A stretch of 64,000 bases of DNA from contig CAJNDT010000002.1 in the NCBI GenBank assembly GCA_905221615.1, positions 1,202,423 through 1,266,422 on the forward strand, written 5' to 3'. The notes under the pieces are model-generated. The model was not told the origin of the DNA. It saw nothing but the letters and a program-made list of their open reading frames with translations, and did not search any database. Shown in pieces: positions 20,301 through 35,300 of the stretch. This DNA is from Symbiodinium sp. CCMP2592 (Eukaryota; Sar; Dinophyceae; Suessiales; Symbiodiniaceae). Both the position numbers and the translations under genes were made by a program. Position 1 is the stretch's first letter. Each line of letters starts with the position of its first letter.

Positions 20301-23300
20301 CAGTTCCAGGTGTGTCTATGAAGCCTACCTGGGCACTTGCTGGCGCAGTGCTCGGTGGCGATAAGGACTATCCTCGTGCCCAGCATCATCGGCCTCATGC
20401 TAGGCTGGAAATCTGTTCTCTTTGAGTCGGTTGTGTAAAACCGTTTATGTCACATGTAGCTTTTGCATACTCCGAACATGAGATGGCAATCAGAGAGGTG
20501 GCATGTGGATTTTGCTACTTTATCACCATTGTTGCAGAACCTGCTCGCGTTGCTTCGTGGATCCCGTCCTCAGTGCTTGCGTGGGCCTGACGCTGCTTTG
20601 CTTCGTGGGGTCCTTGGTCATGGAATTTGCTCCCCGAGATCTCCGAATGTGGATCAAGTGCGTTGTGATCCGCATCGTGCACATCCTGGTTATTTGCGTT
20701 TGTGCCGCAGTGGCTGTGCCCTATTCCGTTCTGCTCCGATGGAAGAACAGCGTTTGGAACCACGCGTTCGAGCGGTTAATTCCAATTGCACTTTGCCTCT
20801 TCAACGTTTGGCGTACAGCGCAGCTTAGCCAACACCACTTAGAGGACGGCTCGGAACTCGGAACACGGGGGCTTCAGAGACTCGGTCCAAGGTCGCTTAC
20901 TTTGGTTCGCCTGCTTTTTCAAGCCGCAAGGTCAAAGTACTTGACCGAGATTTGAAGCTTCAGCAGAGATGAAAGTTGTGCAGGTGATGTTCAGGTTGTT
21001 TGCCTGTTTCCTGACGTCTTGTTGTCTTGTTGCAGCATACATGAGCTCTATCACGCGACGCATGCCAAGATTATTTCACATGACGACAACAAACTACGTC
21101 TACGAGAACTTATTGCGACAGAGAGAGTTTGTGTGCTGTTGGACGCTGCCTGTTCCGATCTTCATTAATTCGTACTGAGGGATGTGGCGCAATCCTGCAT
21201 TGAAACCAATCGAAAAGCAAGAAGCAATCCGGAGCCTGGTCGACACCTTTCGTTGAAACAGCCACTTGCACCCTCGAGTACAAACAGAGGGGTGCAGAAG
21301 AAGCATCCAAATCCCGAAACTCAGAAGCTTCCAAGCCCTGAACCGTTCAAGACGCCGCAGGATGTGGAGCTGCGCAGGCAAGCCAGCCTGCTGGCCATTC
21401 AGACGCTGGAGGATACCATTCTGCACTACGCAGCTTACATGTTGCGCAGCTTGCATGCGCATTGCGAAGATGATCCACACGTGTGGGTTCATGGTTTCTG
21501 GTTTACACTTCAGACATGAACATGTTTGTCAATGCCTTCGCTGCAAGATCATGCAGATGGTGCATACATGCGCTTAACTTGTCCAAAGCCAGTAGGTCAG
21601 TACGAGGCGGTTTGGGTTCCCACTCCAACAGTACTTGGAATCCTGGTTGTTTTATAAGTGGTTAACATAGTTATGTTAGTTAGCTAAAAAGTTAGGTGGA
21701 GTTAGCTTATGTTATAGACATCAAAATTGTAGAAGTAACTTGTGTGTTTTGGCATTGAGGTTTAGGCTAGGGACTCTGATATGAGAAGACACTTCATGGA
21801 GCATAAACACTGGTATCGGAAATGAAATATATAAAACATGTAGCTTGTCAAACAAATTTAAAGCAAAAATACATGTCAATGGCCTGCATGGACAGGCTGT
21901 CGTGCATGGCCTATAGGGCTAAAAATGTCATGTGCATGTGGTACAGCCTTGTGGCGGATTGAGAAGCACTGTTTTTCAAAGCCTGTGGTACAGCTGGTAC
22001 GGTAGCAGCACAGTGGCCTCCCTCTCTGTGGTCTTGCTGTACACCATTGGGTACAGCAAGGAGTCCATGGACACGAAGCCTTGCTCGTTGGTGATGGAGC
22101 ACTTGGCGAACTGCTTTGTCTTCTGTGTCTCTGTTGGCCTCCAACGTTGGACGAGTGTGGCTTTGTCGCCTCCAAGCTCCAAATGGAAAAGCACTTGGCC
22201 CATGTCCCATCTTCCGTCTTCCTGGTGGAACACCACGACGTCGTTGGCATGGATGGCACCACCCCTTGCGAGCCTCGCGATAGAGGCAACCATGGCTTCA
22301 GTTGCTGAGCAATCCACAAACTGGTTGAGGAATTGCAGCTGGTGCTTGTTGGGCTTCTTTGGCTTCACCAACTGGCAGGAGTCTGGAAACAGCCCGGCCT
22401 GTGTCAAAGTGGTGATCTCGGTGGCGAGCACCTGGTTGAGCAAGTGGATCTCGAAGGCGGCTGTTTTCTGGAGCCTTGTGGCGAAAGCAGATATGGTTTT
22501 GTGCTTTCGTTCGCTCGTAAATGTCGATGGCAGGCACCCATGCCGTTGGAGAATATCAGGCAAGTGGAGCAGCCAGTGCCACTTCCGCATCAGTGGCACG
22601 TCGAAGTTGGCCTGTTGGAAGGTCTCGATGGATTCTTCCGCAGCCCTGAGAAGGCTGGCTCTGGTGGTGGCTCCATACATGACCCCTTGGTGAACCTGGT
22701 CGATCAAGCAGGCCTGGCTCAAGAAAGCTTGGCAAGCCTCTGGGCAGATTCCGCTTGACACAACAACAGAATGCAAAAAATGGCGAATGATTGGATAAAG
22801 CCCTAGGAGGTCCGAAGCTTGGCAACTGAACTTCTGGCTGCTCTTGTACTTGGCGACCTTGCTTGTGTCGAACAAACCAGCCAAGTGACCGGCCTTGGAA
22901 GCACCTGGAAAGTTCCACATCCTTATGTATGGGCCCATGGCCTCCCAAATGTTGTAGTGCTCGGAGATGGCTTGGAAGCTCTGGAACAGCACGACTGGGG
23001 CCGTTCCTTGCAGAATGCCGTGCATCCAGTCATGGCAGAACTGGCTGACTGGCTTCACTTGGTTCTTCGCCAACAAAGTCTGGTTCAGGAGCAAGGCCTG
23101 GGGATTCCAGGTCCAACCGGTGGCTTGTTGCCATTGCGAGAATTCTGCTTTGGTCCTGCACGTGGCTCGCCTTTCGTCTAATCTGCGGTAGGACTGGATG
23201 ACGTCTTCATCAGTGGTCAAAACCAATTGGCTGTATTTGGTCGTGCGGTGGTCCATGATGTCGTGGTTGTCGCCTGTGGGTGGTCCTGAGTGGATGTTGG

Positions 23301-32300: not shown

Positions 32301-35300
32301 AACGCCTCCATGAAATCCTGGCCCATCATGCACGTGGTGCCGTAGGTGGAGGAGAAGTGGGAAAGGAATTTCAGCAATGGAAAGCTTGTGCCTCCAGAGT
32401 ATCTCGAGACATAATGCCCTATGGCTGGGAGGCTCTGCCTGCAGGCAACTTCGCCGCTGGCAACGGACTGGATTGCCGACTCCAGACTGGCTCCCATTTG
32501 CACTTGAATGGCTATTTGGCAGGCTGCTTCCAACTCGCTGGTGGCTCTGCCAATGGCATTGCCAGAGTTGGCTCCGACTTGGAAGAACTGTGGAAGGCTT
32601 GGCATGGCTTCTTCCACACTGGAGGCCACCACATGCCACCGCCACCCGGTCTGGATGGCGGACCAGACTGGGTCTGTCTTGGGCACGGAGATGGCTTTGC
32701 CACTGGGATCCGTGGTCCCATGCTCCAGGCATCTCAAGAATGCCGTGGTGTGGCTGCTGGCAAGGGATAGGTATCCTCAGTGGCCAATGTATGTCTACAA
32801 TATACATTTATCCGCAAATTGTAAATGGATTGGATATATAGAGAAAAGGAAACCAATTCTATGTGTCATCTGAGTGGCCCTCTGCTCCACTGACTGGGGC
32901 CAGGGAGCCCTTGCTCTCCTGGACCAGCTGCTGGTTCCTCCAAACCTGCTGCTGGCGCTTTTGGGGGTCCGTGGACATCTGGAGACAAATGGACATGCAC
33001 TTGCAGGCCAACTGCCAAGAGTTGGTGTCCCTTGGCCCAAACGTCAAAGTGGGACACCATCTGCCCTCCCCGGTTGGAGGGGTGGCAAAGAACTTGGCTT
33101 GGAACCAAGGTCTGCTGCTGGCAGAGGCCATGGTGCTCCAGCACCTGCAAGACCTTGGTGACTCTGGTGTTCACTGGCTCGCGGCCATTCACAATGGCCT
33201 CCACCTCTTGGACCACAGCTGGAGGGACAGCCATGGCTTCTGGCTTCTGTGCGGCTGTGGCCTTGTCTGGTATATCCTATCTGGAATTCAAGTGTGGCTG
33301 TGCCGGGCAACTTCTTTCTGCTCGTCTGGAACTGCTGGATTCTAACCACCTGCATATATATCTGTCGGGTTCAACAGTGGCATGGTTCTGCGACCATGGA
33401 TATGCATGGATGGCCTATACTGGCTGCAGGCAGACGATAAAGCAAACAAAACTGTATGCATCCCTTCAACACTTGACACTTGCAAAACTGTTCTGCAGCA
33501 AGCCTTTTCCTGCGAAGGCCTGGCAGAGTCTGGAAGAGTCACTCCTGGACTGGTCGTGGCTACTACCTGGCTTTCTTCTTGTAGCTTCTTTTGGCCTGGC
33601 CGAGGACTTGGGCCGTATCCTCATCATTGCGAATGGTCTTGATGATGGTCTCGATCTGGTGCTGTTCGAGTTGGATGGTGAGATCGCACCTCCTTGGCCT
33701 CTTGCCACTCATCAAGCAGGTGACTTTGGAACCATTGATGTCCATGGTAACTTCTTCTTCTTGGTTGTCTGGAAGAGACCTCTTTCTGGTCGACTTCTTT
33801 CCTGAGCCTGGCTCTGGAGCATCGAAAAGTTGCTCTGCTGGTGTTGCTGGTTGGTCGAAGCTCTGGTTCCTCTTCTTGATGAGATTGGCCATGGCCGTAG
33901 AACCCGACAGACTGGCATTCTTGTCGGGTCTCTGGCCTGTGAGCAACTCAATTATGGGTTGGGAAGTGGGCCGAAGTTGGAGCCACTGTTTGTCCTTGGA
34001 CAGCTTCACCAGATCCTTGGGGATGAGGATTGGCCTCTCCGACTCGTACTTTATCTGGATGGCCGCACGAATTTCCACCATGCTTGGAAGCTATGGTGGA
34101 CGTGGAAAGCTGTAGCTGGCACTCGCTATGGCCGGGTGGCTGCAGCAAACATACCATGCAATACAAAGACATGAGCACACTGCTATGGCCGTCTGGCTCC
34201 CATGATCACACACATGCAATGCCAAATACAAAAAATCGAACAACAACTCTGATAAATTATTTGCTAAAAGCAAACAACATATATCTCTGGCAGTCCATAC
34301 TATAATCTTCAAAATCAATGATAACATTCAGCAAAAACTTCGATTCCATTCTAAAACCCATGATTTCTTATCTTATACCTTCAGTGCACTCGACGAATTA
34401 TGCACCACAAATCAGAATACATGTCATTGAAATATTACATCTCCATGTATGAATTTCGTATTCTCAAAGCCTATATTTCAACATCCATAACTCCATGTAA
34501 CTCACCCTAACTTTTATAAAAGGTTAAGTTAATTATGTTACTTAGCTAACAAAATATTAACTTTAGTAACATAACATAAAAGATATAAGTATTATAGGAA
34601 CATGTAATCACTTAATAGACGGTTAACACTCACTTATAACAGTTTAATAACTAGGGTACAACTCCACATAACTATGTTAACCACTTATAAAACAACCAGG
34701 ATTCCAAGTAGAGTAGAGAAGGCCCTGAAACCGACTTTTTGTTTATGGGCTGTGACCCGACAAGCTGGCTTCCACTCGCACCCTGCCTGCAGGATGCTAC
34801 GTGCTCCGATCCACACGACGAAGCCCAGATCCGTCAGGCCATACAAGGCTTCGAGGCCGGGGATATTTGCGGCGACTTTTTGTCGTTTGGGTTCTGGTTT
34901 GGCATGGGAGCGGGGGGGTATAAACAGGGCCGTCATCTCATGTGCAGCAATGAGAACTGCAGAATTAGTCTTGTTGCGATGGGATGAAAGGTACAGAGCG
35001 TTCAGTCATCTAGTGGCGTGCTAATCTCCTGGCCAAGTTCTGTTTGCAGGCCGAAGTGGATGTGACGATTCGTGCACCTGTGCCAATACATTGCTTGCAA
35101 TGACTTGTTCGATCTTTTTCGTATGTCCTCCCACTGGATATCGATCCGAGTTCAGAGCTCTGAGCAGCGGTGCCAGTCGTTAGGATGCAGCCTCTAGATG
35201 GGTAGTTGTCAAAATTATGGTCCCTTTTTGGGGAACCCTGAATATTAAGTGCCGCATTATATTAAGGACCCAAAAAGGGACCCTAATTTTGACAACCACC

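Follow-up and report, generated by a model that had tools for sequence, protein, structure and literature searches.

A TA-flanked multi-gene DNA transposon with a predicted RAG1-like transposase in the dinoflagellate Symbiodinium

We found that a 13,075-bp element at positions 21634-34708 of a 64-kb stretch of DNA from Symbiodinium sp. CCMP2592 (the window) is very probably a DNA transposon that moves by cut and paste and belongs to a dinoflagellate lineage of the CMCT clade (EnSpm/CACTA, Mirage, Chapaev, Transib), and we read it as a new lineage of such elements. An earlier note had described a complete TA-flanked multi-gene element at this locus. This observation largely holds and was partly confirmed: a complete multi-gene DNA transposon is supported, as a cut-and-paste element in a dinoflagellate.

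Ends and flanks of the element

The terminal inverted repeats are each 43 bp long, the left at 21634..21676 (plus strand, 5'-CTTGGAATCC...) and the right at 34666..34708 (minus strand). The two arms are complementary at 43 of 43 positions, as the earlier note had reported, and the element ends in CTTGG..CCAAG. The reported TA on both sides is also present, at 21632..21633 and 34709..34710, and forms a candidate 2-bp target-site duplication (TSD). Identity between the flanks is limited to these two base pairs, and the sequences differ beyond them. Because TA is its own reverse complement, a 43-bp repeat with a TA duplication and a 45-bp repeat without one are inseparable from a single locus. 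A 30-nt end pattern (TA plus 28 nt, at most three mismatches) occurred at two sites in the window, with no third copy there, and in none of 100 shuffles. No empty site was detected in the window: joined flanks of 60, 200 or 500 bp per side matched only themselves, and those of 1,000 bp per side matched simple repeats and hairpins as well.

A subterminal motif at 21660..21689 (plus strand), partly within the left repeat, has a relative in direct orientation at 34522..34551 (plus strand). The pair matches at 25 of 30 positions, compared with at most 19 at the next-best sites in the window and a maximum of 20 when the right 300 bp were shuffled 500 times by mononucleotide.

Fold and residues of the transposase

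The transposase (692 aa) is encoded by a single minus-strand exon at 21976..24054, stop included, with its ATG at 24054. An RNase-H-like core had been expected from structure prediction of this protein, and it is present in the AlphaFold (AF2) model (pLDDT 88.4), which matches RAG1, amphioxus BbRAGL and HzTransib over about residues 23-557. As modelled, the protein is a DDE transposase whose RNase-H-like core resembles that of RAG1. Its C-terminus showed a BAH-like fold, a reading taken from the structure match only.

The residues D, D, C(2)C, H(3)H and E were kept across 50 aligned members (alignment A1: the window sequence and 49 of 79 matches, duplicate, short and partial ones having been removed by eye; a second alignment, A2, holds the window sequence and 15 of the 79), with spacings near those of RAG1. 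C250/C253 and H495/H499, a zinc-type signature, are present in 49-50 of the 50 rows. The D-to-C spacing is 19 residues, equal to RAG1, and from H to E it is 18, compared with 20 in RAG1; the second D and the E lie 285 residues apart and enclose C(2)C and H(3)H. Spacings were counted over 48 of the 50 rows, since P0068 and P0074 lack a position; the exceptions were P0073 and P0075 (D-to-C 17, H-to-E 28) and P0061 (H-to-E 20).

Pfam gave no credible match to the transposase, and across the 50 A1 members it returned 20 families at E<=0.5, each in one or two members, the best at 0.014 and none a transposase. Searches of the PDB by phmmer and by profile likewise yielded no credible match, RAG1 included, and a viral fold library gave nothing at E<=0.001. 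As sequence comparison credibly recovered neither a transposase family of Pfam nor the RAG1 entries of the PDB, the placement in the CMCT clade is drawn from fold and motif.

Genes and their relatives

The strongest codon signal within the element lies on the minus strand, in line with the claim that its genes share one strand. The accompanying figure of at least seven genes was too high because exons had been taken for genes; by our tally four genes are supported and two more are doubtful. A helical protein and a CxxC/CxxC protein, listed separately, are exons of one 496-aa accessory protein, and two further ORFs join across a 78-nt intron. In gene models P0080 and P0004, the ORFs 25286-26152 and 24485-25249, together with an intervening part of ORF 24690-25415, make up the accessory gene (minus strand). 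Both models map to exon 1 (25463..26137), which encodes the helical N-terminal part and whose ORF found at least eight relatives, and to exon 2 (24960..25376). Exon 3 (24485..24883, stop included), to which P0080 maps, encodes a lysine-rich stretch and the CxxC...CxxC C-terminus. Conservation of this CxxC part was seen only in P0080; the alignment of relatives (A3) has seven further members, none of which extends this far. P0080 is a near-identical record from the same strain, with two substitutions and two gaps relative to the window protein. The structure model of the accessory protein was poor (pLDDT 51.6). A Pfam hit to PAPA-1 (PF04795; E 0.0028 and 0.0084) fell below the family's cut-off; we ascribed it to the lysine-rich stretch and rejected it.

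Gene C (minus strand) joins ORFs 31790-32737 and 31016-31702 through a GT-AG intron at 31733-31810, whose donor is the point where three relatives also diverge. Its main exon, 31811..32725 with an approximate 5' boundary, has relatives P0088-P0090 at 57-61% and a codon signal of 114 bits from a scan partly trained on the same ORF; the last exon, 31016..31732 (stop included), scored 77 bits. A possible upstream exon at 32971..33234 scored 31 bits over 32971-33270, where the opposite strand scored 24. Three further ORFs, also on the minus strand, encode a 172-aa basic protein (33563..34081; 48 bits; no Pfam match), a possible 99-aa KKPAA protein (30447..30746, stop included; no Pfam match; 28 bits for 30576-30785 versus 27 on the opposite strand there) and a doubtful Pro/Thr-rich product (26776..27531), which lies over a 30-bp tandem repeat and scored 42 bits, but 34 in another frame for part of its length. 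The middle of the element (27.7-30.4 kb) has a weaker coding signal, and the element contains an internal 81% duplication (28005-28324 and 29708-30018). A palindromic stretch was also seen in the middle. No RNA family at gathering score and no tRNA was found.

Among the matches listed there were at least 79 transposase homologues, in clusters of up to 101 members; candidates scored numbered 7,998 for the transposase, 7,996 for gene C and 1,105 for the accessory gene, and match counts are lower bounds. The order of accessory gene and transposase is repeated in one annotated record (P0004), the only linkage seen in another record, and a variant accessory gene occurs in one further annotated record. 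Scans of viral contigs with the transposase, A1 and a 24-nt end gave no relative. The scan of genome contigs returned one relative, on a contig of 3,087 bp whose record title names a Bacteroidetes MAG. Its best segment is 28% identical over residues 105-523 of the query, and its inverted repeats reach at most 22 nt; we took it for a putative eukaryotic carry-over in a bacterial record.

The element could instead be a composite, in which a smaller CMCT element of transposase and accessory gene encloses captured or nested host DNA, and gene C, the 172-aa and the KKPAA ORFs are passengers of one copy. The linkage in P0004 of transposase and accessory gene alone fits this account, as do the features of the middle region, which nested insertions could have left. 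However, the gene C relatives P0088-P0090 form clusters of several members (42, 9 and 9), which is what repeated elements would give, and gene C and the 172-aa ORF, which adjoin the right end, share a strand and have comparable codon signals. The longest contigs of the gene C clusters (64,934, 69,903 and 2,105 bp) equal no longest contig of a transposase cluster, which neither shows nor excludes linkage. We consider a composite unlikely, though it is the strongest of the alternatives and partly compatible with the CMCT placement.

Affinities, mechanism and significance

The CMCT clade comprises EnSpm/CACTA, Mirage, Chapaev, Transib, Plavaka, ESTA and Lanisha, and D, D, C(2)C, H(3-4)H, E is described as its signature (PMC12730594). 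The earlier note knew no named superfamily that fits. This stands in part: the CTTGG..CCAAG ends, the BAH-like domain and the gene set differ from known lineages, but by its fold and its conserved residues the transposase falls into CMCT, where ESTA is a named TA-duplicating lineage. CA..TG ends, absent here, are reported 'in most cases' and are not a strict criterion for CMCT, given that wording and that PlavakaA also departs from them (PMC12730594). The fungal Plavaka elements share the CMCT signature and, in PlavakaA, 2-bp TSDs; according to the same source their ends are TGT..ACA (PlavakaA) and CATCA..TGATG (PlavakaB), unlike those found here.

ESTA elements are described as EnSpm-like transposons with TA TSDs in rust fungi (PMC12730594). 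By that description, our element shares with ESTA the TA flanks, a RAG1-related transposase and C(2)C and H(3-4)H between the second D and E; these features favour true membership, through transfer between fungi and dinoflagellates or common to both. The host differs, however, the BAH-like C-terminus may be a further difference, no dioxygenase family was found in the ORFs scanned with Pfam, and no fungal name appears among the at least 79 listed matches, most of which lack an organism name. We regard membership as improbable.

A transposase with a second gene, CACTA..TAGTG ends and a 3-bp TSD are normal for CACTA elements (PMC4158355). Our element resembles EnSpm/CACTA in its signature residues, its second gene and its repeated subterminal motif; it differs in lacking CACTA/TAGTG ends, in its 2-bp TA and in having no CACTA transposase family among its Pfam matches. 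Repeated subterminal motifs are a CACTA trait. Polinton/Maverick elements carry their own DNA polymerase, a retroviral-type integrase and ATPase/capsid genes. In the part of the element's ORFs that was scanned with Pfam (9 ORFs in one scan, 5 entries in another), neither a polymerase nor an integrase nor a capsid family was detected, and CACTA elements normally have a second gene beside the transposase, so ordinary TA-inserting or self-encoding giant elements, against which the cargo had been judged, were probably the wrong yardstick.

Transib elements have a 5-bp TSD and CAC-type ends, neither of which was found here. The match to Transib, ProtoRAG (BbRAGL) and RAG1 lies in the fold and the D-to-C spacing; the 2-bp TA, the BAH-like domain and the lack of a RAG2-like family in the scanned ORFs set the element apart. 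A bolder reading, which we hold tentatively, is a separate and widespread dinoflagellate RAG1/Transib-like lineage. Its transposase would contain a BAH chromatin reader, at least four element-coded proteins would be conserved and move together with it, and histone marks might guide the choice of target. Among the papers listed on dinoflagellate or Symbiodinium TIR transposons, EnSpm, CACTA, Transib and BAH plus transposase, no title or abstract opening described such an element, which is no proof of absence; the topically nearest concerned intronic elements in Amoebophrya (PMC7789003).

A domesticated, immobile RAG1-like recombinase with a host function would suit the BAH-like domain and the conservation of catalytic residues over a wide family, but perfect repeats with TA, the near-identical P0080 record and the large transposase clusters make it very unlikely. 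Least probable is a Tc1/mariner-type element with acquired genes: TA on each side agrees with it, but Tc1/mariner transposases have a compact DDE/D core without a zinc-binding insertion, and we found a RAG1-like fold and residues, the long cysteine- and histidine-bearing stretch between second D and E, and no Tc1/mariner Pfam match.

For a cut-and-paste element of the CMCT clade, a transposase dimer would pair the two ends, and the accessory CxxC protein may have the role that the second protein has in CACTA elements, binding subterminal motifs or the ends themselves. Cutting at the CTTGG ends would fall to the D/D/E site, possibly via flank hairpins as in RAG1/Transib, and joining across a 2-bp TA would yield the duplication. 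The BAH domain might dock the complex on chromatin and bias target choice.

The host is a coral-symbiont alga, and the transposase is predicted to fold like RAG1 of the human immune system. RAG1 originated from transposons of the Transib type. Every additional free-living relative that is described together with its partners broadens the view of end pairing, target choice and helper recruitment. Dinoflagellate chromatin is unusual, and a RAG1-fold transposase with a BAH-like domain in these organisms would allow the idea of insertion guided by chromatin marks to be tested. Because its ends are identical and one strain holds near-identical proteins, the element is a candidate for continuing activity; if active, it could serve as a tool where transformation is difficult.

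Ends and surroundings of the element

The element (21634-34708) is bounded by an exact 43-bp inverted repeat, with arms at 21634-21676 and 34666-34708, and measures 13,075 bp from outer edge to outer edge of the pair. We found that a 30-nt end pattern, TA included, occurs in the window at these two sites only when up to three mismatches are allowed, and in 0 of 100 dinucleotide shuffles, which excludes a chance origin of the inverted repeat. TA abuts both ends (21632-21633 and 34709-34710). These flanks are weaker evidence, because TA is self-complementary and a 45-bp repeat without duplication would look identical at a single locus. 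Outside the TAs the flanks differ, so a longer target duplication is not visible. When joined as an empty site, the flanks matched only their own site in the window; the widest setting also brought up matches of simple-repeat and hairpin type.

The terminal 300 bp are AT-rich (left 64%, right 72%). A 30-nt motif beginning within the left repeat has a second, direct-orientation copy at 34522-34551, with 25 of 30 positions matching; mononucleotide shuffling of the right end, repeated 500 times, gave at most 20. CACTA elements carry subterminal repeats, which this direct-orientation motif resembles; the element's accessory CxxC protein may bind to the motif.

Other repeats were also observed. Within the element lies a direct duplication of about 320 bp (28005-28324 and 29708-30018, 81% identity) with a telomere-like GACCCTAAACC stretch at its end, possibly a nested repeat family, and an AT-rich palindromic stretch (27729-27859) has units like TAGATTCAxAATTTGAATCTA in both orientations. 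A MITE-like, hairpin-like inverted repeat (35199-35302; arms 34 nt, 94%) adjoins the element on the right. Elsewhere in the window there are CCCTAAA telomere-type repeats (7556-7612 and, degenerate, 49546-49694) and a tandem array of 2.2 copies of a 239-bp unit (42069-42592, 96%). Two plus-strand ORFs (10185-10931 and 20503-20955), compared by eye, share similar hydrophobic membrane-like stretches ending in FNxxRxxQLxQHxLE and are perhaps paralogous genes or repeats.

Gene content

The earlier note had counted at least seven genes, which proved too many; four are supported, namely the 692-aa transposase (21976-24054), an accessory gene, gene C (31016-32725) and a 172-aa ORF (33563-34081), the last by codon signal alone. 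In a codon-usage scan, partly circular in being trained on the element's own transposase, accessory exon 1 and gene C main exon ORFs, the minus strand gave the top scores: the transposase reached 186 bits, the two gene C exons 114 and 77, the three accessory exons 96, 47 and 15, and the 172-aa ORF 48, against maxima of 25 outside the element and 27 on the plus strand within it.

The annotated relative P0080 (498 aa) maps on three exons (26137-25463, 25376-24960 and 24883-24488), and P0004 (1,008 aa) follows these three exons as far as residue 448, indicating that the ORFs once read as separate 'helical' and 'CxxC' proteins form a single 496-aa accessory protein. Its first ORF has at least 8 relatives among the 1,105 candidates scored; among the aligned relatives, P0080 alone extends into the CxxC part. 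The gene C ORFs (31790-32737 and 31016-31702) are likewise joined, through a 78-nt GT-AG intron that keeps the frame. Three relatives of gene C (57-61% identity) are similar up to the same residue (..HIK), with no counterpart beyond. Two ORFs are doubtful: the 99-aa KKPAA ORF, since it scores 28 bits vs 27 on the opposite strand, and the Pro/Thr ORF, since it overlies a 30-bp tandem repeat and two frames score.

Active site and classification of the transposase

Conservation was read from an alignment of 50 rows (the window and 49 of 79 listed homologues), numbered by the row starting at 24060; ATG-based numbers are lower by 2. D231, C250, H347, H499 and E517 are present in 50/50 rows, C253 and H495 in 49/50, and D131 in 47 of the 48 rows that carry a residue at this position. 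D231 and C250 are 19 residues apart in 46/48 rows, H495 and H499 4 apart in 48/48, and H499 and E517 18 apart in 45/48. Mouse RAG1, as described in PMC4914335, has catalytic D600, D708 and E962 and zinc ligands C727, C730, H937 and H942; the corresponding D-to-C, H-to-H and H-to-E spacings are 19, 5 and 20 there and 19, 4 and 18 here. VIA-align placed transposase residues 24-561 on mouse RAG1 477-1005 (chain 6oet_A), and the distances to the end of the aligned range, 44 residues for E517 and 43 for E962, are consistent. From order, spacing and alignment range, we infer that the catalytic residues correspond one-to-one with those of RAG1.

The CMCT (EnSpm-Mirage-Chapaev-Transib) clade is described in a 2025 paper (PMC12730594) as having mostly CA..TG ends and 2-5-bp duplications, its TA-inserting members from rust fungi being named ESTA. 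The two C and three H conserved according to a figure legend there agree, at the level of that legend, with C250, C253, H347, H495 and H499. The element carries the CMCT protein signature; its TA flanks are like those of ESTA by description. EnSpm/CACTA elements, as outlined in PMC4158355, have CACTA..TAGTG ends, a 3-bp duplication and a transposase plus second ORF, whereas this element has neither such ends nor such a duplication, and four genes are supported where a second is normal. The earlier view that no named superfamily fits is half right: the transposase has the CMCT signature, and ESTA is a named TA-inserting lineage of that clade.

Relatives, proposed mechanism and standing of the element

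The closest annotated proteins are from Symbiodinium sp. CCMP2592 itself (Dinophyceae, Suessiales). P0001 equals the window transposase over 682/682 residues from its start, followed by a different splice form. P0080 (longest contig 520,204 bp) has 494 residues identical to the accessory protein, with 2 substitutions and 2 gap positions, and is therefore a separate copy or an allele. In P0004, on a contig of 23,968 bp, 448/448 residues match the accessory protein; transposase segments follow, one identical at 358/358, the other with 176 identities against 10 mismatches plus 3 gaps. Apart from one substitution, these differences lie, as judged by eye, in a tail where the splice forms diverge. 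The P0004 gene model probably does not describe a true protein, because the annotation omits transposase parts and fuses two genes. The accessory-transposase order recurs in this second record, which could be an allele or assembly duplicate. Two further matches were seen. The C-terminal part of P0070, a Symbiodinium dynamin-like model (dlpC), contains a transposase piece (64% identity, covering 28% of the query), likely an annotation chimera or exonised copy, and a 3,087-bp contig from a record titled Bacteroidetes MAG holds a distant relative (L001:867-2119, 28%) and is probably misbinned eukaryotic DNA.

The ends, conserved residues and exon structure were observed, and the transposase fold and BAH-like domain are predicted. 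By analogy with the RAG1/Transib family, the transposase would form a paired-end complex and cut at the CTTGG boundary, possibly with a flank hairpin, and the ends would be joined across TA. The accessory protein may assist at the ends, as in CACTA. BAH domains elsewhere dock on chromatin marks, and the BAH-like domain may do the same.

The element is a real transposon, as the earlier note had claimed, with its exact ends, TA on both sides and transposase. The identical ends and near-identical records suggest that it was probably active recently. It stands apart, as far as our searches show, by its four genes, its BAH-like domain and its CTTGG ends. It is best read as a dinoflagellate lineage within the CMCT clade, a variant of a known transposon kind.
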